Below, in pieces: positions 50,535 through 64,000 of a stretch of DNA of 64,000 nucleotides (its first letter is position 1; the number at the start of each line of letters is the position of its first letter). The notes beneath the pieces were generated by a model. The model was not told the origin of the DNA. It was given only the letters and a program-made list of their open reading frames with translations, and searched no databases. The DNA comes from Acidobacteriota bacterium (GTDB lineage: Bacteria; Acidobacteriota; UBA6911; RPQK01; JAJDTT01), in the NCBI GenBank assembly GCA_028874215.1, contig JAPPLF010000068.1, forward strand, positions 45,127 through 109,126, written 5' to 3'. A program made the position numbers and the translations under genes.

Positions 50535-51653
50535 TTAACCGAACACTTCCTTGACCTTGCCGAAGAAACCCTCGTTGTCCCGGCTCGACTTCTCGATGGT
50601 GTCCAATTGGAGCAGCAACTCCCGTTGTTCCCGGCTCAGCCGCTTCGGAAAGGTGACCTTGATTCTGACAAACTGATCCCCGCGGCCGTGTCCTCGAAGA
50701 CTCATGACTCCGCGCCCCCTGAGACGGAAGACCGTACCGGGTTGCGTGCCTTCGGGCAGCCGCAATTTTTCCGTTCCCTGCAATGTCGGGACCACCAGTT
50801 CTGTTCCCAGCGCGGCCTGAACGAAACTCACCGGAACCTCGCAGTGAAGGTCGTTCTGATCCCGGCTGAAAAAGGGGTGTTCCTCGACGGAAAGGACCAC
50901 GTAGAGGTCTCCCGAAGGTCCCTTGTTGGGCCCGGCCTCTCCTTCGCCGACGATGCGCAGCTTCGAACCCTGGTCCACGCCAGGCGGAATCTTGATCTCC
51001 AGGACCTTCTCCCGCTGAATCCGACCCGCCCCGTGGCACTGGCGGCACCGGTTCTTGACGATCCGTCCCGAGCCCTGGCATTGGGAACAGGTGCGGCTGA
51101 TGGTAAAAAAGCCCTGCTGATAGCGTTGCTGGCCCTGACCTTGACAGGCCGGGCAGGTGACGGGACCGGTTCCGGGGTCGGCGCCGGAGCCGTTACACGG
51201 TTCGCAGGTCTCTTGTCTGGGAATCTTGATCTTGGTCGTGGCTCCGAAGACGGCGTCCTCGAATGAGATTCTGAAATCGTACCTCAGATCGGCGCCCCGG
51301 CGGGCCCGGGTCCCTCGGCCGGATCGTCCGCCGCCGAAGACGTCACCGAATCCGAACAGATCGCCCAGGATATCGCTGAAGTCGGCGAAGGGATCGCCGC
51401 TGAATCCTCCACCCGGGCCTCCCGCGCCGCTCACGCCGGCATGGCCAAAGCGGTCGTACTGGGTGCGCTTCTGCGGGTCGATCAGAACGCTGTAGGCTTC
51501 GGCGGCCTCCTTGAAACGCTCTTCGGCCTGTTTGTCTCCCGGATTCTTGTCCGGATGGTACTTGATGGCGAGCTTGCGGTACGCTGCCTTCAAGTCCTGC
51601 TGAGAGGCCTTGCGACCCACCCCCAGAACTTCGTAATAATCTCTTTTGGACAA
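50535..51653 (-). CDS. dnaJ: Chaperone DnaJ
   Basis: 372 aa from a TTG start (GGGAG site nearby). J domain with YHPDKNPGD, glycine/phenylalanine linker ([13 protein letters not shown]), four CxxCxGxG zinc repeats ([32 protein letters not shown]) and the C-terminal substrate domain. Co-chaperone that stimulates DnaK; dnaK and grpE are not in the window. No CIRCE element was found upstream in 51654-51918, which holds nothing else recognisable. Confidence 0.97.
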
Positions 51654-51918: not shown

Positions 51919-52902
51919 TCAGGTTCGGATAATGGGATCGATAAATTCACGCATGGCCGCGACACACTGGTGCGGTTGTTCCAGTTGCAGCAAGTGGCTC
52001 GCTTCCGGAATGAAATCGTAGTCGACGGTCAGCATGTTGCTCATATCCATGGTGGGGAGGTAGGAGTACGGCAGCATCGGATCGGCCCCGATGACCTTGG
52101 TCGGGCAGCGAAGGGAATCAAGGTCCACGAGCACGGCAAACGCTCGCGCGTAGTCTACGAGTCGTGCTTCATATTCGGGTGGGCATCGAAGCTCGAATCC
52201 GTCTCCATCGGCACACTCCCGAAGCGTCGTCATGGCCACGAGATCGCAGACACCGGGCACGACACGTTGGAAGACCGGCAAATACGGAAGAAAGCCGGCA
52301 AACGCTTCCCTGGACTTGAAGCGGTCCGTCCGGCGCCGGGTCATGGCGGCGACCCGGGTCGCCGCCCGCTCGAATTCTTCGTAGCTGTCATCCGGCTTGC
52401 ACAGGGGTGGGTCAAACAATACGCGCGCCGAGAATCCGCTTCCCCGTGTCGGTGACAAGAGCGTGATCAGAGCCGAAACGGAATGAAATACGCCGATTCG
52501 CGGCTTCTTCCCGAAATGGCCGTCGATCGCCTCAAGAAGCCGGTCGTGGTCACGAATCAGCGTCGGAATGTTCTGCTCTCGCAGATTGCCGACGGTATTC
52601 CACCCATGGTTTCTGAGGTCGTACATGACCAAGTCGAATTCGTCGGCCAGGAGTGACCAGAAAGGATAGTAGAGATCTATGGCCAATCCGTTGCCGTGGC
52701 TCAGGACAAGGCGCGGACCTGCCGGGTTTCCGTGACGTCTCAGCGTGATCGAGGTGACATCGTCCACGCGGACCTCGCAAGTCGAGAGCGGTTCGGGTAT
52801 TTTCCACGCGTCAGTCAAGTCGGAGGTTTCCCCAATAAGTTGTCGCTGCGCCAGGAAAAGGCAAACTCGCCATTTGGGGCCGGGGTGGCGGCAGCGTTGC
52901 AA
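51919..52902 (-). CDS. Alpha/beta hydrolase, possible PKS release enzyme
   Basis: 327 aa. Alpha/beta-hydrolase fold: the oxyanion strand LVLSHGNGLAID, nucleophile elbow VFHSVSA (Ser with an unusual Ser after it instead of Gly), acid near DPMLPYSY and catalytic His in EASHLLQL. The enzyme could be an esterase or thioesterase. It is the next gene on the same strand after the ACP and PKS, and no TE domain is present in the PKS, so release of the acyl product is its most attractive role. The N-terminal 50 residues lack conservation and the exact start is unsure. The 271-bp spacer 52903-53173 shows no feature. Confidence 0.6.
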   Translation of the reverse strand: MQRCRHPGPKWRVCLFLAQRQLIGETSDLTDAWKIPEPLSTCEVRVDDVTSITLRRHGNPAGPRLVLSHGNGLAIDLYYPFWSLLADEFDLVMYDLRNHGWNTVGNLREQNIPTLIRDHDRLLEAIDGHFGKKPRIGVFHSVSALITLLSPTRGSGFSARVLFDPPLCKPDDSYEEFERAATRVAAMTRRRTDRFKSREAFAGFLPYLPVFQRVVPGVCDLVAMTTLRECADGDGFELRCPPEYEARLVDYARAFAVLVDLDSLRCPTKVIGADPMLPYSYLPTMDMSNMLTVDYDFIPEASHLLQLEQPHQCVAAMREFIDPIIRT

Positions 52903-53173
52903 ACGGACCCGGTGCCCCTTATCGAGCGAAGCTCAGTTGTCCGCCTCGGATGCTCTGTGGGGAGTCAGGTCGACGAGCAGGATGGAGATCTTACCGGCTG
53001 CCCTGAACGGACGCCGCGAACACTGATCTGCGATAACGGACATCGCCGGTTGAGCTTGTTCCACCGATCACGTATTGGAGGGGAATTCTGCCTGCGACGA
53101 ATGACCCGGTGGACCGTACAGACGTCGGTGATCGTTACCCCGGGGGGCTGACTGTCTGCGGGTCCGGGAATGT

Positions 53174-53419
53174 TCAACCAGCGTGCGTATCGAGGTACTC
53201 GACTAACATCCCCACGGAACGAATCTTCGCACACTCTTCCGGAGGAATCGTGATGTTGAACTCCTTGGAGACGACCTGCATGAACGCAACGGCATCCATT
53301 GAGGAAACACCGGCCTCGATGAGGTTGGTGTTGAGATCCAAAGGTCGGCCCAACGGGCGTCCGTCCACTTCGAGATTCTCGTCGACGATTTGTCTGATAC
53401 GTTCCTCGACTGAGGCCAT
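53174..53419 (-). CDS. Discrete acyl carrier protein
   Basis: 81 aa. Four-helix ACP pattern (EERIRQIVDENLEVDG, LNTNLIEAGVSSMDAVAFMQVV, IPPEECAKIRSVGMLVEYL). The phosphopantetheine serine is in GVSSMD, in place of the usual DSL. It stands directly downstream of the PKS, whose second KS-AT has no carrier of its own, so it probably accepts that module's product. Its DNA is poorer in G+C than the PKS (27 of 60 bases at 53401-53460). Confidence 0.85.
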   Translation of the reverse strand: MASVEERIRQIVDENLEVDGRPLGRPLDLNTNLIEAGVSSMDAVAFMQVVSKEFNITIPPEECAKIRSVGMLVEYLDTHAG

Positions 53420-53580
53420 AGTATTGATGCTTTCAAACAGTTTAGGAGAAGGAAATCGGCGGAAAAACTATCAGGAAGGGTTCCTCAAGTCAATCAATCG
53501 CTTCCGGATCACTCTTTCCCGTTGGACGGGTTCGCGTCAAACGCCTTGCCGTCCCGAACCCCTTGGAGAATGCGTCAACG

Positions 53581-55512
53581 TCACGAGGTGGAAGCACTCT
53601 GCCTCGGCGCTCTGAACCAGTAGTGCCGTCGTTGAAATGGATAGACAGGCAGAGAAATCCGGCGCCGGACCTCTCCCGCAAACAGCCCGGCAAAGGAAAC
53701 CGCAAGACCGGCCTCGTACGCTCCTGCAACGGCCTCCACAAAGCAGCCGTCACATTCGTTCGCCGATTCCTTCCCGGAGGGGCGCCGCATACTCCGTAGC
53801 ACGGCCGGTGCACGATTCGACTCCCCGCCCGGTGGGTGAGGCCAGGACCTGACGACCTTCGGCCCCAATATGGCATCGGGGCCAATTTCCAAAATGGCGT
53901 CAACACCAAGTCGTTTCAGTGTTCGGACGCAATTGCCGAATCGTGCCGGTTCATTCGTCTGCCGGCGCCAGTACTCGCCGTCTGCCGCCTCGGTTGGCTC
54001 CATGACACGGCCTGTCGCGCCGCTGACCACGGCGCGCGACGGCGGCGCGAACGTGATTCCCCGCAAGAATGCGTCCGGATTCTCCAACCCGGGTGCCGCT
54101 GCCCTCCCTTGCGGCCGGGTCGCCGGCAGCGGAGTCCTCGCCATTGCCAATCGAAGCCCTTCCTCCAAGCTCATAACCGCTGCGGCCTGCGCCGCCGCCA
54201 ATTCCCCTACGCCCTGGCCGAACACGACTCTGGGCTGGATCCCCACGCTTGACCACAGCGCCGCAAGTGCACATTCCAGTGCATATACGGCTGGCTGCGC
54301 CCACGAAGCCCGGTCCGAATCTCCGCCCGGACCGGACCGTCCGAACATCACGTCCAACAGCGAATACCCCCGTTGTTCCCGCAGCATTTCATCACAGCGA
54401 TTCAGCACCGCCCGCACCACCGGCTCGCTGTCATACAACGCCTGGCCCATGCCGATCCACTGACTGCCCTCCCCGGTGAACACGAACGCCACCTTTTTGG
54501 CTGTCAACGGCTCGGGACTCTCGTTTCCTTCGGCGATGGCCTTCAGTCCGGTACGCAACGACGGAGCGTCGTGGAATACGACTGCGGCCCGGTAATCAAA
54601 ATGACTACGACCCAGTCCCGCCGTCCACGCCATATCCGCAAGCATCGCCTCTTCGGCCGCTGACGAAGTCAGCTCCCCGGTCCGCTCGTCGAACCAGCTC
54701 GCGTACCTCCCCGCCAGTTTCCGCAGGGCACCGCCGGACTTCCCGGACAAGGGCAGGAGCCGGAGCCCGCGCGCCCGGAATTCTCCTTCCTCCGGTAGCG
54801 GCAGGTCCGACAGCGGCTCGGGAAGAGAAACGGCGACCGTCCGCCCGGAACCCGCCGGTGGAGATCCGGAGTTCGAATCGTCGCCATTGGTTGTTCCGTA
54901 CCCTTCCACGACGATGTGGGAGTTCGCTCCCGAAACCCCGAACGCGCTGATTGCTGCCCGCGGCGGCCGATCGGCGTGACGAGGCCAGTCCGTCGCCTCG
55001 GAAGTCACCTTTACAGGGAGCCGGTCCCATTCCACGTTCGGGTTCGGGTTGTGGAAGTGCAATTGCTTTGGAATCACCCCCTGCTTCATGGCGAGGAGTA
55101 CCTTGATGAGTCCGGCAACGCCGGCAGCCGTCTCCAGATGGCCGATATTGCCCTTGACCGAGCCGATCAACAGCGGGCTGTCCGCTTCACGTCCCTTGCC
55201 GTACACCGCCGCTGCCGCCTGCACTTCAATCGGGTCGCCCAACGCCGACCCGACCCCGTGGGCCTCGAGGTAGTCGACGTCCGGTGGAGACACTCCCGAA
55301 CGGGACAGCGCCTCCTCGATCACCCGTTCCTGTGCCGGACCGTTGGGGACCGTCGGTCCAGCGCTTGCCCCGTTTTGGTTGACCGCCGATCCGAGGATCA
55401 CGCCCCAGATGCGGTCGCCGTCGGCCTGCGCCCTTTCGAGCCGCTTCAGGACGACCATTCCGCAGCCTTCCCCCGCACGAAGCCGTCGGCGGAGGCATCG
55501 AATACGTTGCAC
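53581..55512 (-). pseudogene. PKS 3' part: rest of second KS plus degenerate AT
   Basis: Continuation of the PKS in the next frame, open for 643 codons. It completes the second KS (GMVVLKRLERAQADG, EAHGVGSALGDP, NIGHLE) and an AT-like region (FTGEGSQWIGMGQALY). The AT active site GHSxGE is replaced by GQGVGE (54202-54219), removing Ser and His. Between MARTP and VVSGATG the AT is shortened by a large segment, including the malonyl/methylmalonyl-selecting region. The AT therefore cannot load an extender. The block ends with the linker RRHYWFRAPR and no ACP or TE. It can only be made if the frame is restored. Confidence 0.85.
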
Positions 55513-58500
55513 CGGCCTGCCTTCGACAACATACCCATGTCCGCCATCGCCCTCGTAATCTCAGGCGACAGGATTGCACTCACGCCTCCTACGAGCGCCA
55601 GGTCCACTTCATCCTGGCGCAAGCTCGCGACCGCGTGGTGTACCGCGACCAGCGACGACGCGCAGTTGAGTTCCACCGGTATCGTCGGCCCCTCAAGTCC
55701 CAGATGAAATGCGACGCGTCCGACGGTCATGCTGGCGGCGTTGCCCAGGTAACTCACGCCGTAGTCGTTCTTCGCCATCAGGTCCCGGTATTCGCTGGTA
55801 GCGATACCGGCATAGACTCCGGTGCGGCTGCCCCGCAAGCTGGCCGGATCTATCCCGGCATCCTCGAGAGCCTGCCAACTCGTCTCCAGAAGCATGCGCT
55901 GCCGCGGGTCCATCATGCGCGCCTCGATCGGCGCAACCCGGAAGAATCTCGCATCAAAAGTCTCGATCTCTTCCACGAACCCGCCCCGGCAGTAGGCGGC
56001 ATATTCCGGCGGAAGGTCTCCGGCAAGATCGCTCCAGTTGTCGGAACCCGGGCGCCGGTCGGTCACCGCGTCCGCGCCGGCCTCGAGCTGGCGCCAGAAC
56101 GCTTCATGATCCGGAGCGCCGGGGAAGCGGCACGCCACGCCCACGATCGCAATGGCGTCTCCCTCAGCTTGATACGCCGGACGTTGCTCAGGCCCGGGTT
56201 GAGGCTCCGGTACGGGTTCACCCTCAACTTGGGCAAGCTCTTCGGCGAGATGACGGGCCAGGGTAGCGATGTCGGGGTAGTCGAACACGATGGTGTTGGA
56301 CGCGGTGTACTCCTCGGCAAACGCCCGGTTCAGCCGGTTCCGCAACTCCACGGCCATCAGGGAGTCCATCCCCAGATCGAAGAAACCTACGGTCGGCGCC
56401 GGTTCCGATGGCAGCCGCAGGACGGATTGCACCTCCGCCTGCAGGAACGCCACCAGCACCTCTTCGCGCTCCACGACGGGCGATTCCCGCAGCCGGGAGA
56501 GCACGTTTCTGGTTGAGCCGGAGGCATCCCCGCCGGCATCGGCCGTTGTCGACAGCAGATCTTCCAGCAGTGGTGGACGGTCCTCGACAGCCTCTTCGAA
56601 TACCGACCAGTCCATGGACATCACAACGGAATGCGTGACGTCTTGGCGCACCAGCCGGTCGAATGCCCTGAGGCCCTGCTGAGGAGTAAACCAGCGGCCG
56701 CCGAGCGCCGATCGTTGCCGGTCGATCCGCTCCCGTTGTTCCGCCGCCTCGCCGATTTCCGACCAGGCCCCCCAGGCGATGGCCTGCCCCGGGAGCCCCA
56801 GCGCCCGGCGGTGACCGGCCAGTTGGTCCAGAAACGCATTGGCGGCGGCATGGTTGGCCTGTCCCGGATTGCCCATAACGCCGACGCGGCTGGAGTAGAG
56901 GACGAACATGTCCAGGTCGCGGTCGACGGTGGCGCGATGCAGGTGCCAGGCCCCCAGTATTTTCGGCCAAAGAACGGTTTCGAACCTCTCCCAGGTCTGG
57001 TTGGTGAGCGCACCGTCGGACAGCACCCCGACGCTGTGGATCACGCCGCCCAAGGGGGGCAGTTCCTGGTCCACGCGCGCCAGCATTGCGTCCACGGCAT
57101 TCCCGTCCGTCACATCCGCCAACTCGACATGGACCGTTGCCCCGCGTTCCCGGAGCGCCCGGATCGCTTCTTCGGCGTCGGCTTCGGGCGCGCGTCGTCC
57201 ATTCAGCACGATGGCCCCGGCGCCACGGTCCGCCAGCCAGCCGGCGACGGCGCATCCGATCCCGCCCAGACCGCCGGTCACCAGGTAGGTCCGGTCCCGG
57301 CGCAACCGGTTCCCCATGAGCGGCGGCGTGGTCACCACGATCTTCCCGAGGTGCCGGGCCGACCGCATGAAGCTCAGCGCGGCTCCGGCTTCGGCCAACG
57401 GCCACCGGCTGTGGACGATGGGTTTCAGTTCGCCCGCCCCAAGGCGCTCCATCACTCGCCGAAGGACCCTCCCGACCCATGCGGGATCGGTCTTTTTCAG
57501 AACATCCAGTTCCAGGATGGAGTAGGGGACGTCGGGACGCACCGCCGCCATCTCGTCTTCGCTGAGGATGTCCCGTCTGGCCATCTCCACGAAGCGGCCA
57601 CCGTGCCTGAGACAGGACAGACTCGCGTCGATGAAGCCCTCTCCCGTCAGACTGTTCAGCACCACGTCCACGCCGCTGCCGCCGGTGGCTTCCAGAATCT
57701 CCTTCCCGAACGCCGTCTGGCGGCTGTCGAACACGTGTTCCACACCCAGCGACTTCAAATAAGCCTGCTTGCGGGCGCTGGCTGTGGCGAAGACCTCCGC
57801 TCCCGCCGCCTGCACCCACTGGATGGCCGCCAAACCCACCCCGCCGGCGCCGGCGTGAATCAGTACCCGTTCGCCGGCCTTCAGGCCGGAGAGCTCAAAG
57901 GACAGCGCGGCCGATACGAACGCGCTCGGCACCGTCGCCAGTCCAGTCACCGAAAACCCTGCCGGGGCGGGGGCCACCAACTCTTCGTGGGTGACCATTT
58001 CCGGAGCGAACGCACCGAATCCCAGACCAACCACGTGGTCTCCGGCCGATACCGTGGATACCTCGGAGCCCACGTCCAGGACGTAGCCGCACATCTCCCG
58101 GCCCAACCGTCCCTCCTCGATAAAGCCGAGCGAACGAAATACGTCCCAGAAGTTCAGCCCGGCCGCTTCCACCGAGATGCGTACTTCCCGCGGCTCCAGT
58201 GAATGCTCCGGCAGCGGCTGGACGTACGGTTGATCGAAGACACCGCTCGTGTCCGGAGCCAGGACCCAGCCCGGCTCCTGGGGCAGGGCCAGGCGCTCCG
58301 CCTCCGATTCCGCCCGAACCAGCCGTGCGATTTGACGCCGTCCCCATCGGTACGCGATGTGATTCTCCGGGTCGGGATACATCAACTCATTGACCAGGTC
58401 CGGCTCGGCCGCCCTCTCGCCGGGATCCAAATCGATCATCCTCGGCTGTAGATGCGCTGCTTCCCGGGCCACCCCTTTGCCGAAACCCCAAAGGGCTGCG

Positions 58501-61500
58501 CCGGCAAGTTCGCCGCCCAGCTCACGCTCCAATACCTGGGCCCCTCGAGTGAGAAACCACATCCCCTTTACAGGCGTCAGATCGGAGTCGCCCGCGCCTT
58601 GCACCATGGCCAACGCGCTCGCTCCCGCGTGTCTCACGTCCGCCGCGATTTCTTCCGGGGTCGCTTCCGCACCGTGACCGTCCAGGGCCGCGAGATGCAC
58701 CATGCCGTTGAACGGAACGTCCCGGGGCAGGCTGTCGATCAGCGAACTCCACGACTCCCGCCGGCCCATGTCCAACGCTGTTTCAAAAACCCCGGGACCG
58801 GGCGTTCCCGGCCACCCGTTTCCCGACGATTCGCTGTCTACGAGCAGGACTGTCTGGTTCCGAGCCGCCAAATCGGTTGCCAGCTTCGCCGCCGCGCCGC
58901 CCCGGTCTGCTCCCAAGACCCACACGCCTCGCGGTTCCGTCGCCACGGCCGGGCCTCTGGCCACGATAACGCCCTTGTCCGGCGTCCTGGTCGCATCGGA
59001 CTCGTCCACTCCCAGGACCTCCACTTCTTCGAAACCGGCGTCCCCAAGTGCTCGTCGCCACACCGCGGGGCTTGCCAGGGCGTGGTGCGGACGGTAGTCG
59101 TCGGCAAACCGCCACCAGCCGTCCAACTGTCCGAAAGTCAGGTCCATCCAACCCAAACCGCTGAGGTTCTCCAGTGCGATCAACTGGCCGGATGGCGCGA
59201 GAAGCTGCCGGCAGTGCCCCAGGGTTTCTTCGAGGTGCCGCGTGGCGTGCAGCACGTTGGATGCGAGCAGCACGTCATAGCCGTGGGCGTCGAAGCCCTG
59301 GTCGACCGGGTCTTTTTCGATATCCAGCGGACGGTATTCGATACACCCGCCGGCGTCGCCGAAACGCTCCTCCGCTTCGGCAAAGAAGCCCGCCGAGATG
59401 TCGGTGTACATGTAGTCGAATCGCCCTTCCGGGAGTTCCGGAAGCACCGATGCAGTCGCCGATCCCGTGCCGGCCCCGACCTCGATCACCCTGAGTCGCC
59501 TTCCGTCGGGCAGCGCCGCCACGAGTGCCTGAATCGCCTCCTTCAGCATCCGGTTCGCCGCGCGCGCCACCGGGGCTTTCAGGTACAGGTCAGCCGGGGT
59601 CGGGTCTCCGCTGCTGAACAGGAGCGTCAGCGGGTCCAGTTGGCCCCGAAGCACGTCGGCGAGGGCGTCGCCCGAGCGCCGGAACAGCCCCACTTCAATC
59701 AAACCGTGAGGGAATCGTCCGGCCATCGCCGTGTCATGTCCCTCGGGGTCCGGAGGCATTCCTTCCGGCCAAGGGTCACCCGATCCCACCAAGACGACGA
59801 ATCTGTCGCCCTCTTCCGCCAATACTCCCGATTGGGCCAACATTTCGAGCATTCGGCGGAAGAGTTTTTTATGCTCGCCGATGACGTTCAACTGCTTCCG
59901 CAAGTCGTCGGGAACCACGACCGCTCCCACCGTGCGCCGCCAACCCAACTTGTCCAGCGTCAAAAGCGCATAGGATCGTGACCATCGCTCCAGATCCGTC
60001 AACAGGGCGTCCCGGTCGTCGGGGTCGACCCCCGCGTCCGTCAGGTAATCCGAAAACATCTGCGAGGCGCCCTTCACCGACGTCGGGCCCGGAAAGAAAT
60101 CCGCAGACAGCAGTCCCGGTGGAAGGGCGCGTTCGCGCCACACAATCTCGTAGAGGAGTTCCTTTACCCCTTCGACCGCCGAGAGAAGCGCCGCACGCGT
60201 CGCCCGCTTCACCGTGTACCCGCTCAGCCCACCAAGCAGAACGCCGTTGGGATCGTAGAGGCGCAATTCGCCGCTCAGTACTTCCGGCGGCTCGCCCGCT
60301 GCCGCATCCGCCTCGCGGGACGCCTCGCTCATGCGCACGTGGCAGAACACCCGATCCGGAAGCTTCCCGGTGGTCAGCCACAGCCGCTCCCAACCGAAGG
60401 GCAGATAGGTGACGGAACCGTAGGGTCCGGTCAAGTTGCGCGCCGCGCCTACGACCTGAAAACAACCGTCCAGCACCAGCGGGTGAACATCCAGCCCGTT
60501 CCGGCCGAGGCCTTCAGGGAAGGAGACCTCGCCCAACGCCTCGCCCGCCCGGGACCACAATCGGCGCAACGTCCTGAAGCAGGGGCCCAGATCGACGCCG
60601 GTACCCGCCCTGGCGCGGTAATAGGCGGCCACGTCCGACGGCAACAGCCTGGCCTTCAGGCCTTCCAGATCGATCCGCCGTCCGGTTTCGGGGGTGGATG
60701 CGCCGGGCGACATGCGACCCTCCACATGGACCGTCCATTCCCCTTCGCTCCCTTTACTGTAGATCCGGACACCACGGGACGACGCCCCCTCGGCAGCACT
60801 GAGCACGACCTGCAACGTCCGGCCGGGTTCGCCCGTCCCGTTCTCCGAACCCTCCTCCGGGAGGACCAACGCGTTGTGAAGTTGCATCTCCTCCAAGATC
60901 ACCGGACCTCTCCCCTCGGCGAGAGAGGCCGAAACCGCCATCGCTCCGTAGAGCGCACCCGGCGCCACAATCCGGCCGAACACGCGGTGATCGTCGAGCC
61001 ACGCGGGATCCGAAGGGAAGATTTCCGTTTCGAAGGTTGTCTCGCCGCGCGCGGATTCGTGCCGGATTCCCAGCAAGGGGTGCCCTGTGGTCCTGGACCG
61101 TCGCTTCGGCGCCTCGAGCCAGTGGCGTGTGCGTTGGAACGGATAGCCCGGCAACGAAATCCGCCGCCGGGACTCGCCGGCGAACAGCCCCTCGAAACGA
61201 ATCGGGAGTCCCGCCTCATACGCCTCCGCGACGGCATTCACGAAGCCGCCGCTTGCGGCGCCCGGTGCGTTCCCGGACGGCGGGCGCAAGCTTGACACGA
61301 CCCCCGGCGCCGTCGTCCCGGCCGACTCCGGCCAGGCGGAGAGCACCATTGGAGCCAAAATCGAGCGCGGGCCGATCTCGATCACCAGATCCACGCCGAG
61401 ACCCGCCAGCGTCCTGACGCCGCGGGCGAATGCCACCGGCTGCCTGGCGTGCCGTCTCCAGTAAGATCCGTCCAGCAACCGGGCAGTCTCCACTGCGCGG

Positions 61501-63971
61501 CCGGTGAGATTGCTGACCATGGACAGGATGGGAGGTTGGATCGCCACGCCGTCAAGGGTCGTTTCCAGTGCGTCGAGGATCGGCTCCACCAAGGCGCTGT
61601 GGAACGCCTTGGCCGTGTTCAGGCGCCTGACCCGGACTCCCTCCGATTCAAGGCGCTCCGAGATGGCATCGATTGCCGTGACCGTACCGCTGACCACCTG
61701 ATGGGTCCCGTTGTCTGCGGAGATATTCAATTCGAGGGGGGAAGTCGTAGTCTGCAATGCTTCGACGGCTGCGGCCACTCGTGCCGGCGGTGCGAACACC
61801 GCTGCCATGGCGCCCTCTGCCATTTCCGACATCAATGCGCCCCGAGTGCAGGCGAACCGCATGCCGTCTTCCAGGCTGAAGACTCCCGCCGCCTGCGCCG
61901 CCGCCAATTCCCCGATACTGTGTCCTACCACCACCGCGGGACGGACACCCAAACTCCACCACAGCCCGGTGAGCGCGCATTCCAGGGCGTACAGGGCCGG
62001 CTGCTCCCAAGCCGTGTCACCCAGCGTTCCGTCATCTCCACACCGGCCGAACATCGTGTCCAGGAGAGAGGCCTCCCTCTCCTCCCGGAATACCGCCTCG
62101 CACCGGTCCAGAATGGCCTGAACCACCGGTTCGGTCTCGTAGAGCGTCCGCCCCATGCCGGCCCACTGGCTCCCCTGTCCGGTGTAGGCGAACGCCACCC
62201 TGGCCGCTGCTTTCGACACCGAGTCTCCGACGGACCCCGCCAGAACAGTGAGCTGTTCCCGCAAGTCGCTGGCGTTGCGGAAGACGACTCCCGCTCGGCA
62301 ATCGAAATGACTTCGCCCCACGCCCGCCGTCCACGCCATGTCCGAGAGCGTCGGTCCCGACGCGGCGCCTTCGGTGGACACGCCCGGCTGATCGTCGAGC
62401 CACGAAAGATACCGCTCCGCAAGTTCACCGAGCGCGGTATCGGACTTTCCCGAGAGGGGCAGGAAACGGGTGCGGCGGGGCGCGGCGCTCCCCGGTAACT
62501 GCAGGCCCGGCATGTTCCCCGGGAGCGAAACCGCCACCGGCTGGGCTGAGCCGGCACTCGTATGGCCGTTGGCGGAAACCCCGTCCGGCGCCTCGTACTC
62601 TTCCACCACGAGATGGGCGTTCGTCCCGGAGATTCCGAAGCAGTTCACCCCCGCGAGCCGCGGCTGTCCAGGACTTCGCGGCCAGTCCATCATCTCCGAC
62701 GTCACCCGCAGCGGCAGACGATCCCAGTCGACGCTCGGGTTGGGATTGTGGAAATGCAGATGCTTCGGAATGACACCCCGGTTCACCACCAGTGCCGCCT
62801 TGATCAGTCCGGCGACTCCTGCAGCCGACTCCAGGTGGCCGATGTTGGTTTTTACGGAACCCATCAGAAGTGGCTGGTCGGTGTTGCGTCCCCTGCAGTA
62901 GACATCGGCCACGGCGTCGATCTCGATGGGATCGCCCACCGCCGTCCCGGTCCCGTGTGCCTCCAGGTATTCCACATCCGATGCGGCGACCCCGGCCTGC
63001 GAGAGCGCCTCCTCCATGACCGTAACCAGCGCCGGTGTGTTCGGAACCGTCAGTCCCACACTGGCCCCGCCGTGGTTCACGGACGCACCCCGGATCACCG
63101 CCCAGATCCGATCGCCGTCGGCCTTCGCCTCGCTCAGGCGTTTGAGGACCACGATCCCGCAGCCCTCACCCCGCACGTAACCGTCCGCCGAAGCATCGAA
63201 GGTCTTGCACTGGCCGGCAGGGGACAGCATCATCGCTTCGGCTCGGAGTTCGTAAATGCGACCGTTCAGGATGGCCTGCACACCGCCGGCAATGGCCAGA
63301 TCCGCCTTGCCGTGCTGCAGATCCGCCACCGCGTCGTGTATTGCCACCAGAGCCGACGCGCAGGCGGCGTCCACGGCCTTTGCCGGCCCCCTGAGGCCCA
63401 GTACGAAGGAGACCCGGCCGGCGGCACCGTTCAGGTTCGTTCCGCTGAGGGCGTACAGGCATCCGGCAGCCTCGGAGGGTTTGGCCGATTCCACGACCAG
63501 CATGCGGTATTCGTCGTTGCTGATCCCCGCGTAGACGCCGGTGCGGCTCCCTTTCAAACGGTGCGGATCGATCCCCGCGTCCTCGAGAGCCTGCCAGCTC
63601 ACCTCCAGCATCATGCGCTGCTGTGGGTCCAGCAGTTGAGCCTCCACCGGGGATATCCGGAAAAACGAGTCGTCGAACCGGTCGATGTCGTCCACGAAGG
63701 CGCCGAAACGGCAGCCTTCGCTCTGCACCGCATCGTCGCCGAAGATCTGGCCCCAGCGCCCGACCCCCGAACCGGGGACCCCTTCGCTGACGGCATTCCC
63801 GCCGGCTTCAAGCAGGCGCCAGAAGTCCGACAGGTGCGCCGCGCCGGGAAACCTGCATGCCATTCCCACGATGGCGATGGGCTCTCCGGAACTCATGCCC
63901 GTTCGGTTTTCCGCAGCATGTTCGTCGAGTGGTCTTTCTGACGGTCCTAAATCGCCGTCATGTCCCATCAT
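55446..63971 (-). CDS. Type I reducing polyketide synthase (5' part)
   Basis: 2841 aa, with a GAGGGGAG ribosome site before the start. Order by residue: KS (30-455; active Cys near 203 in DAACASALVAIH, His in EAHGTGT and NIGHLES), AT (565-870; GHSIGE near 684, AFHS for malonyl choice), DH (940-1220; HRVFGRIVAP), C-methyltransferase (1440-1680; VIEVGAGTGSA), silent KR-like fold, ER (1870-2190; HAGAGGVGLAAI), KR (2220-2400; VTGGLGGIG), ACP (DLGMDSL near 2534), then most of a second KS (Cys near 2769 in LNCASSL). In KR the catalytic Tyr position reads GQANHAAAN. Together with the next block and the discrete ACP this makes a fully reduced, alpha-methylated chain. The frame ends in KS2 through a one-base shift. 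Confidence 0.93.
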   Translation of the reverse strand: MMGHDGDLGPSERPLDEHAAENRTGMSSGEPIAIVGMACRFPGAAHLSDFWRLLEAGGNAVSEGVPGSGVGRWGQIFGDDAVQSEGCRFGAFVDDIDRFDDSFFRISPVEAQLLDPQQRMMLEVSWQALEDAGIDPHRLKGSRTGVYAGISNDEYRMLVVESAKPSEAAGCLYALSGTNLNGAAGRVSFVLGLRGPAKAVDAACASALVAIHDAVADLQHGKADLAIAGGVQAILNGRIYELRAEAMMLSPAGQCKTFDASADGYVRGEGCGIVVLKRLSEAKADGDRIWAVIRGASVNHGGASVGLTVPNTPALVTVMEEALSQAGVAASDVEYLEAHGTGTAVGDPIEIDAVADVYCRGRNTDQPLLMGSVKTNIGHLESAAGVAGLIKAALVVNRGVIPKHLHFHNPNPSVDWDRLPLRVTSEMMDWPRSPGQPRLAGVNCFGISGTNAHLVVEEYEAPDGVSANGHTSAGSAQPVAVSLPGNMPGLQLPGSAAPRRTRFLPLSGKSDTALGELAERYLSWLDDQPGVSTEGAASGPTLSDMAWTAGVGRSHFDCRAGVVFRNASDLREQLTVLAGSVGDSVSKAAARVAFAYTGQGSQWAGMGRTLYETEPVVQAILDRCEAVFREEREASLLDTMFGRCGDDGTLGDTAWEQPALYALECALTGLWWSLGVRPAVVVGHSIGELAAAQAAGVFSLEDGMRFACTRGALMSEMAEGAMAAVFAPPARVAAAVEALQTTTSPLELNISADNGTHQVVSGTVTAIDAISERLESEGVRVRRLNTAKAFHSALVEPILDALETTLDGVAIQPPILSMVSNLTGRAVETARLLDGSYWRRHARQPVAFARGVRTLAGLGVDLVIEIGPRSILAPMVLSAWPESAGTTAPGVVSSLRPPSGNAPGAASGGFVNAVAEAYEAGLPIRFEGLFAGESRRRISLPGYPFQRTRHWLEAPKRRSRTTGHPLLGIRHESARGETTFETEIFPSDPAWLDDHRVFGRIVAPGALYGAMAVSASLAEGRGPVILEEMQLHNALVLPEEGSENGTGEPGRTLQVVLSAAEGASSRGVRIYSKGSEGEWTVHVEGRMSPGASTPETGRRIDLEGLKARLLPSDVAAYYRARAGTGVDLGPCFRTLRRLWSRAGEALGEVSFPEGLGRNGLDVHPLVLDGCFQVVGAARNLTGPYGSVTYLPFGWERLWLTTGKLPDRVFCHVRMSEASREADAAAGEPPEVLSGELRLYDPNGVLLGGLSGYTVKRATRAALLSAVEGVKELLYEIVWRERALPPGLLSADFFPGPTSVKGASQMFSDYLTDAGVDPDDRDALLTDLERWSRSYALLTLDKLGWRRTVGAVVVPDDLRKQLNVIGEHKKLFRRMLEMLAQSGVLAEEGDRFVVLVGSGDPWPEGMPPDPEGHDTAMAGRFPHGLIEVGLFRRSGDALADVLRGQLDPLTLLFSSGDPTPADLYLKAPVARAANRMLKEAIQALVAALPDGRRLRVIEVGAGTGSATASVLPELPEGRFDYMYTDISAGFFAEAEERFGDAGGCIEYRPLDIEKDPVDQGFDAHGYDVLLASNVLHATRHLEETLGHCRQLLAPSGQLIALENLSGLGWMDLTFGQLDGWWRFADDYRPHHALASPAVWRRALGDAGFEEVEVLGVDESDATRTPDKGVIVARGPAVATEPRGVWVLGADRGGAAAKLATDLAARNQTVLLVDSESSGNGWPGTPGPGVFETALDMGRRESWSSLIDSLPRDVPFNGMVHLAALDGHGAEATPEEIAADVRHAGASALAMVQGAGDSDLTPVKGMWFLTRGAQVLERELGGELAGAALWGFGKGVAREAAHLQPRMIDLDPGERAAEPDLVNELMYPDPENHIAYRWGRRQIARLVRAESEAERLALPQEPGWVLAPDTSGVFDQPYVQPLPEHSLEPREVRISVEAAGLNFWDVFRSLGFIEEGRLGREMCGYVLDVGSEVSTVSAGDHVVGLGFGAFAPEMVTHEELVAPAPAGFSVTGLATVPSAFVSAALSFELSGLKAGERVLIHAGAGGVGLAAIQWVQAAGAEVFATASARKQAYLKSLGVEHVFDSRQTAFGKEILEATGGSGVDVVLNSLTGEGFIDASLSCLRHGGRFVEMARRDILSEDEMAAVRPDVPYSILELDVLKKTDPAWVGRVLRRVMERLGAGELKPIVHSRWPLAEAGAALSFMRSARHLGKIVVTTPPLMGNRLRRDRTYLVTGGLGGIGCAVAGWLADRGAGAIVLNGRRAPEADAEEAIRALRERGATVHVELADVTDGNAVDAMLARVDQELPPLGGVIHSVGVLSDGALTNQTWERFETVLWPKILGAWHLHRATVDRDLDMFVLYSSRVGVMGNPGQANHAAANAFLDQLAGHRRALGLPGQAIAWGAWSEIGEAAEQRERIDRQRSALGGRWFTPQQGLRAFDRLVRQDVTHSVVMSMDWSVFEEAVEDRPPLLEDLLSTTADAGGDASGSTRNVLSRLRESPVVEREEVLVAFLQAEVQSVLRLPSEPAPTVGFFDLGMDSLMAVELRNRLNRAFAEEYTASNTIVFDYPDIATLARHLAEELAQVEGEPVPEPQPGPEQRPAYQAEGDAIAIVGVACRFPGAPDHEAFWRQLEAGADAVTDRRPGSDNWSDLAGDLPPEYAAYCRGGFVEEIETFDARFFRVAPIEARMMDPRQRMLLETSWQALEDAGIDPASLRGSRTGVYAGIATSEYRDLMAKNDYGVSYLGNAASMTVGRVAFHLGLEGPTIPVELNCASSLVAVHHAVASLRQDEVDLALVGGVSAILSPEITRAMADMGMLSKAGRCNVFDASADGFVRGKAAEWSS
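55470..55474 (-). other. Frameshift in G run within second KS
   Basis: Reading the minus strand, CGG-GGG-AAG gives RGK and a stop 20 bases later, while one more G would give R-G-E-G-C-G-M as in the first KS (VRGEGCG). The run has five Gs; six are needed. It may be a true mutation, a programmed slip or a sequencing error. Confidence 0.85.
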
Positions 63972-64000
63972 GTTCTCCCCTCTGGCGCAGACTATGACTC

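Follow-up and report, generated by a model that had tools for sequence, protein, structure and literature searches.

A probable SUP-family polyketide synthase with a conserved ending of second KS, dead AT, free ACP and hydrolase

Introduction

The SUP (sponge symbiont ubiquitous) enzymes are small monomodular type I PKSs of microbe-rich sponges, where they have been proposed to make mid-chain-branched fatty acids (PMC4245539). In one sponge, SUP genes made up more than 99% of the KS amplicons (PMC4245539), and Chloroflexota, Spirochaetota, Proteobacteria, and Acidobacteriota are the phyla whose MAGs have yielded SUP-like clusters (PMC9426513). Excerpts of two papers call the SUP product a proposal or prediction (PMC4245539, PMC6151786), while an excerpt of a third gives it as fact (PMC9864124). 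The motifs DPQQ and HGTGT are those of the KS PCR primers (PMC4245539, PMC3908369).

A second sponge-specific small PKS is Swf (sponge widespread fatty acid synthase). As excerpted, its description gives no MT, HATGT, no DPQQR, and a reductase-sulphotransferase that follows (PMC3908369).

Chain release can also be the work of a terminal KS alone, even when its AT is dead. The published analogue is CalA3 from calcimycin biosynthesis, a terminal PKS module without an ACP. In the excerpted account its Cys-His-His is conserved, the Ser-His dyad of its AT has become Gly and Leu, and the chain is released by amidation or hydrolysis (PMC10006239).

The locus

The window is the whole stretch of DNA that was analysed, 64,000 nt from an Acidobacteriota bacterium (GCA_028874215.1, contig JAPPLF010000068.1, positions 45,127 to 109,126, forward strand). 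Pfam matches on its minus strand give KS-AT-DH-MT-ER-KR-ACP-KS2-AT0, then a free ACP, then an alpha/beta hydrolase (ABH). ORF calls and Pfam give the order of transcription as PKS ORF, second ORF, small ACP, and hydrolase. The original prediction, made from the letters alone, had placed these domains and genes correctly in coordinates, order, and strand. All features below lie on the minus strand and are numbered within the window.

The PKS ORF (55446..63971, 2841 aa) carries KS1, AT1, DH, MT, ER, KR, an in-line ACP, and the N half of KS2, and stops at a frame break. KS1 (62595..63887) has Cys-His-His, DPQQR, and HGTGT, and AT1 (61332..62204) has intact GHSIGE and AFHS motifs. These are followed by the DH (60177..61091), the C-methyltransferase or MT (58941..59651), the ER (57324..58223), a KR whose catalytic Tyr is replaced by His (56739..57296), and the in-line ACP (56211..56501).

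KS2 (54898..56162) is read in two frames, with its N half at 55455-56162 and its C half at 54898-55485. The second ORF (53581..55512) contains the C half of KS2, the KS-AT linker, an AT0 remnant (matches at 53842-54498), and the post-AT linker YPFQRR. Next come the free-standing ACP (53174..53419, 81 aa), with its modification Ser in GVSSMD, and the hydrolase (51919..52902), of which the part common to congeners starts at about 52818.

The PKS ORF goes out of frame at a run of G (about 55470-55474) within a conserved KS stretch, and the rest of KS2 lies in another frame. In one congener (G002) the same region is a single open frame of about 3500 aa that runs through KS2-AT0. The two window ORFs are one gene. 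Because the congener is intact there, the break is either a recent mutation or an assembly error. The original prediction had seen the second KS correctly and missed its frame break.

Comparison with described systems

The window locus very probably belongs to the SUP family; SUP is the likely name because domain content, distribution, and KS1 motifs match. As in the SUP enzymes, there is one complete module (KS-AT-DH-MT-ER-KR-ACP), the family is spread over unrelated phyla (at least 10 named ones), and KS1 keeps the primer motifs DPQQ and HGTGT. The original prediction had drawn this link to small PKSs of sponge symbionts, and it agrees with the SUP descriptions in domain order, distribution, and KS1 motifs. 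The difference lies in the ending: the excerpted descriptions call the SUP enzymes monomodular, whereas the window family adds KS2-AT0, a free ACP, and a hydrolase. These trailing parts are not mentioned in the excerpts of the SUP descriptions compared, and Fieseler 2007 may state them. A literature search for a C-terminal KS with a truncated AT gave nothing relevant by title, and one for SupB/SupC found nothing.

SwfA differs from the window PKS, which has MT, DPQQR, HGTGT, and KS2. No reductase-sulphotransferase was seen by eye among the ORFs flanking the window PKS. Identity with SwfA was rejected on the KS1 motifs (HGTGT, DPQQR) and the presence of MT. Elsewhere in the same genome (contig C51, L006 5417-14590) lies a Swf-like PKS with HATGT, GHSSGE, IAFH, and no DPQQR by eye, followed by a reductase-sulphotransferase gene that is apparently split (names by eye).

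KS2 resembles CalA3 in being terminal, in its Cys-His-His, in its dead AT, and in having no in-line ACP. CalA3, as far as the excerpt describes it, differs in being a separate protein of a modular line, with DH and KR regions that are likely inactive, a small AT subdomain that is kept, and no free ACP-hydrolase pair. In the window family AT0 and its linker end the protein, and the CalA3 trait of DH and KR regions in the same module is absent.

Mycocerosic acid synthase and Pks2 are iterative, fully reducing single modules for methyl-branched lipids. They gave the second-best NCBIfam score (NF041183) and the best PDB match of the window KR. They differ in that the methyl groups of the window product are expected from the MT, with a malonyl-type AT, and in the extra KS2-AT0. 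A mycobacterial identity was rejected, since NF041183 scored 1149.7 bits against a cut-off of 2400. The best-scoring NCBIfam model, NF045894, was also below its cut-off (1496.3 against 1740).

The first module

Among the best 80 of at least 511 relatives, the SAM-motif Glu of the MT is present in 81/81 sequences, the His and Asp of the DH in 77/77, and the second Gly of the ER in 74/74. KS1 has HGTGT and both Q of DPQQ in 71/71. AT1 has an xAFH motif, with Ser in 66/67 (one gap) and His in 67/67; we take this motif to mark a malonyl-type AT. The Pfam domains and xAFH bear out the original prediction of one reducing, C-methylating module with an AT of this type.

AT1 would load malonyl units in an iterative cycle, the MT would add alpha-methyl groups from SAM, and KR, DH, and ER would carry out reduction. 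By established PKS knowledge applied to the domains seen, the output would be a methyl-branched acyl chain on the in-line ACP. Complete reduction appears less than certain, because the catalytic Tyr of the KR is His in 68/68 sequences (the window and 67 loci; Ser, Lys, and Asn are retained) and the Gly of the DH motif HxxxG is retained in only 44/77.

Conservation in the genus and beyond

The PKS is found in all four genomes of the genus. KS2-AT0-ACP-hydrolase is found in three of them: the window genome (G000), G002, where it lies on a single contig, and G001, where a contig break interrupts it. G003, the remaining genome, is cut off ahead of KS2.

A named-genome scan was made with the MT region, and the best 80 of at least 511 relatives were used, one of which is the congener G003 (L055). 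By depositors' labels these 80 comprise Chloroflexota (20), Gemmatimonadota (18), Pseudomonadota (14), Acidobacteriota (10), Actinomycetota (6), Nitrospirota (3), Latescibacterota (3), Myxococcota, Bacteroidota, Rhodothermota, and Aminicenantes (1 each), and two unplaced. This makes at least 10 named phyla on labels that call L055 itself Candidatus Aminicenantes. The MAG series to which these relatives belong presumably come from sponges. Two further loci, L023 and L024, are other PKSs, with 31-35% identity.

KS2, its AT (AT2), the free ACP, and the hydrolase were searched in these best 80 loci with profiles built from seed sequences. KS2, counted when over half of the profile matched, is present in all 65 loci that reach more than 2 kb past the in-line ACP. 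Among the 62 that reach more than 3.5 kb, 58 have a partial AT2, which covers no more than about 0.8 of its profile, and 4 gave no AT2 match. For the 57 that reach more than 7 kb, the free ACP is found in 45, the hydrolase in 46, both in 43, and neither in 9 (L062, L080, L096, L097, L110, L111, L123, L128, L131). The ACP alone is missing in L073 (split hits), L081, and L092, and the hydrolase alone in L105 and L107.

Chance is excluded for the string, because it occurs in three of the four genomes of the genus and in dozens of loci elsewhere. That the window locus is a lone oddity was likewise rejected on KS2 being in 65/65 extended loci of the best 80. The original prediction had proposed conserved synteny across many genomes as its check, and the string recurs in this way; the trailing KS, dead AT, free ACP, and hydrolase form one conserved unit, as it had supposed. 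What it called an unusual design is the usual ending of a PKS family and is not peculiar to the window locus.

The second KS and its dead AT

Residue roles in KS2, the free ACP, and the hydrolase were assigned by motif. In the 65 near-complete KS2 sequences from the best 80 of at least 511 relatives, the Cys, the Lys, and the second His are each conserved in 65/65, and the first His in 60/65. (This set shares 62 members with the 65 loci above; KS2 is split or short in L073, L080, and L105, and L077, L122, and L124 end too soon.) The counterpart of HGTGT mostly ends in GS (last residue Ser in 58/65), and DPQQ is mostly DPRQ (46/65). The five KS2 without the first His require three changes on the KS2 tree. 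We read these as losses of the first His with the Cys kept, which would fit acyl transfer without decarboxylation in those lineages.

In the window, the second AT match covers only positions 2-169 of the 319 in the Pfam profile, its nucleophile motif is GQGVG, and a deletion has removed the part that would hold the catalytic His. The original prediction had correctly called this AT null. Of 65 tails, 60 are complete, and AT2 was compared in 57, namely 56 locus tails longer than 300 aa and the window's. The His column is gapped in 57/57, and the Ser column reads G47 D4 N1 S5, so that Ser is replaced in 52/57. One block of about 80 columns, the part that bears the His in AT1, is largely absent (occupancy 0.02-0.27). 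A sequencing fault was rejected, since the same deletion is seen in 57/57 tails. The deletion is probably old and single. The motif of the post-AT linker is retained in 59 of the 60 complete tails. In L045, L046, L088, L090, and L099, nearly the whole AT between the linkers is gone.

The median dN/dS of the 14 closest non-overlapping pairs is 0.07 for KS1, 0.10 for KS2, and 0.33 for AT0; for the AT1 region it is 0.21 (12 pairs). KS2 is under purifying selection. Its identity averages 67% between 61 loci. On a quick tree with very long outgroup branches, a single branch (SH-aLRT 99) separates KS1 (73 rows) from KS2 (66 rows), and the two KS go back to one duplication.

Structures were modelled from alignments of 42/53 KS2-AT0 stretches and of 43/49 hydrolase stretches with the window's. 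In the AlphaFold2 model of KS2-AT0 from L056, the AT0 core (residues 571-830) has pLDDT of mostly 82-95, with a dip at 691-710; the mean is 69.6 overall, and the N half of KS2 is of low confidence. Compared as a whole, the model comes closest to KS-AT didomain structures (CurL, Z 28.9, rmsd 5.6, 566 aligned). Argued from conservation, KS2 would be a live enzyme on a dead AT kept as a scaffold.

Free ACP, hydrolase, and neighbouring genes

The modification Ser of the free ACP is conserved in 54/54 sequences of the best 80 of at least 511 relatives. The hydrolase has its Ser in 52/52 (one row is gapped), and its Asp and His in 53/53. Its model (pLDDT 87.5) shows an ordinary alpha/beta hydrolase fold, which matches E-2-(acetamidomethylene)succinate hydrolase (3kxp, Z 28.2), the acyl-CoA hydrolase MpaH (26.8), and the methylesterase PME-1 (26.1). 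Curacin thioesterase was the second Foldseek match of the model, and a PDB search by sequence gave weak matches only (6, best E 0.001). Naming the reaction from the fold was rejected, because all top matches share a common fold and no function follows from it.

Hydrolases within the genus share 82-86% identity. In 42 of 47 loci the nearest ACP and hydrolase share a strand, whereas the hydrolase and the PKS do so in 20 of 46 and are opposite in 26. Because of this, the ACP-hydrolase pair tends to travel as a unit that remains beside the PKS whichever way it is oriented. The PKS was found in 16 of 396 genomes of the phylum, a count that omits 8 of 24 genomes with a best match of only E 1e-63 to 1e-95. 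All 16 have a hydrolase homologue; the Fisher value for this co-occurrence overstates independence because the 16 genomes belong to three genera. The homologues in G003 and G144 are just 57% and 49% identical and lie on a contig without the PKS. Two genomes have the hydrolase alone.

A second pair of free ACP and hydrolase occurs in the window's own genome (contig C64, L050 8862-10079), in a 19.5 kb stretch with no PKS match. By eye, this ACP has Ala at the place of the modification Ser. Because of this pair and the two genomes with a hydrolase and no PKS, the ACP-hydrolase pair may have a role independent of the PKS. The congener G001 has two free ACP genes in tandem downstream of its PKS (L021 1431-2209).

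Other genes recur beside the PKS in the best 80 of at least 511 loci. An ORF cluster whose tested member is a phosphopantetheinyl transferase occurs in up to 17 of the 80, a median of 0.7 kb past the PKS; the 17 include L088 and L099, on the other strand and maybe shadow frames, and L061, far upstream. The window's own genome has two phosphopantetheinyl transferases elsewhere and a stand-alone malonyltransferase-type AT (C28), so the parts to prime and load the free ACP exist. A nearby permease of the SupE type is a further SUP trait, for which the candidate is a cluster with one tested member (L101), a Xan_ur_permease; it touches up to 26 of the 80 loci, some as shadow frames, and no ORF of this type was seen beside the window PKS. 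A repeat-rich cluster recurs downstream of the PKS in 34 of these loci (L056, L058, L060, L089, and others). By eye it looks like the antisense of a leucine-rich-repeat protein.

How the chain may be released

The best explanation of the locus is a SUP-family member whose chain is relayed onto the free ACP, with a probability of about 0.55. KS2 would take the finished chain from the neighbouring in-line ACP onto its Cys and hand it over to the dedicated free ACP; this step would be either a simple transacylation or a final condensation with malonyl on that ACP. The adjacent serine hydrolase would then release or transfer the chain from the free ACP. The figure covers transacylation and condensation together, and the two have equal standing: the usual triad of KS2 would favour condensation, and the repeated loss of the first His would favour transfer. 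Both the product and the chemistry of this relay are what we infer.

A release of the CalA3 kind, in which KS2 passes the chain to another nucleophile, is unlikely, and all other outcomes together are improbable to a slightly lesser degree. By analogy with CalA3, KS2 alone would end synthesis onto a small amine, alcohol, or water, and the ACP and hydrolase would act later or elsewhere. KS2 does have the CalA3 traits of a terminal position, no ACP, Cys-His-His, and a lost AT dyad, as excerpted in PMC10006239. Such a release would have no need of the free ACP and hydrolase, yet both are kept beside KS2 in 43 of 57 loci, a hydrolase homologue accompanies the PKS in 16/16 genomes, and no amine-supplying gene was seen among the 12 largest recurrent neighbour clusters.

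It is less likely again that KS2-AT0, its catalytic residues being residual, assists KS1 structurally or in setting chain length, with the hydrolase releasing the chain directly from the in-line ACP and the free ACP serving as a starter or helper carrier. The AT0 core is confidently modelled, as a scaffold would be, and 5 of 65 KS2 lack the first His; against this, the invariant Cys and second His (65/65 each) and a dN/dS of about 0.1 point to catalysis.

That the trailing part is functionless baggage decaying from an old duplication is very improbable: the frame break in the window, the near-complete loss of AT0 in some lineages, and its dN/dS of 0.33 would suit it, but it is largely contradicted by KS2 in 65/65 loci, at 67% mean identity (61 loci) and a dN/dS of 0.10. 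The original prediction's own refutation, that KS2 and the ACP belong to degenerate stray genes, fails for the family, where KS2 and ACP residues are conserved, although the window's own KS2 is frame-broken.

Probable insertion site and possible mosaic origin

In 15 relatives of the order or class (L148-L162), grpE lies directly ahead of dnaJ, and hrcA is also in view in 14. Of the 17 genomes outside the genus, G005 and G013 (L163, L164) gave a weaker DnaJ without adjacent grpE and are not among the 15; G003 gave no DnaJ match in the same search. Members of the window genus have the PKS, ACP, and hydrolase between grpE and dnaJ. G000 and G002 show both borders, G001 the dnaJ side, and G003 the hrcA side.

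The insertion in the window is about 12 kb long. The PKS begins 20 bp after the stop of grpE (63992..63994), dnaJ (50535..51653) forms the right-hand border, and hrcA lies further upstream of grpE, beyond the window (L005). Because relatives have grpE directly before dnaJ, the most likely origin of the cluster here is insertion into a heat-shock operon, with the flanking genes named by eye. Given the 20 bp spacing to grpE, co-expression of the PKS under heat shock is possible.

Eight sequences were compared along the PKS. Up to residue 2600 or so, its congeners mostly resemble the window PKS less (0.57-0.80 per 200 aa) than do one copy from Nitrospirota and two from Gemmatimonadota (0.62-0.88). 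At residues 2601-2800, in KS2, the Gemmatimonadota copies fall to 0.57-0.58, and the values are 0.73-0.77 for Latescibacterota, 0.74 for Nitrospirota, and 0.70 for the congener G001. The window PKS has the look of a mosaic gene. Across the KS2 tree (n=65), there are at least 19 changes of phylum by depositors' labels. The gene seems to have crossed phyla and to have recombined on the way.

Significance

Taken as a whole, the picture would be that an off-loading relay, built on an ancient duplicate KS, closes the PKS most abundant in sponge microbiomes, that the AT subdomain was lost once before the gene spread to at least 10 phyla, and that this is a general and overlooked ending for cis-AT iterative enzymes. 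This joint reading is tentative, at somewhat less than even odds.

Within the family, nature provides successive stages of AT decay beside a live KS, from a deleted subdomain to near-complete loss. If the relay is true, KS2 would tend to go unseen in surveys that rely on KS primers, since it has mostly lost the primer motifs. The conserved ending of KS2-AT0, ACP, and hydrolase tells which parts to express together to obtain the product, and it offers a release step that can be tested.
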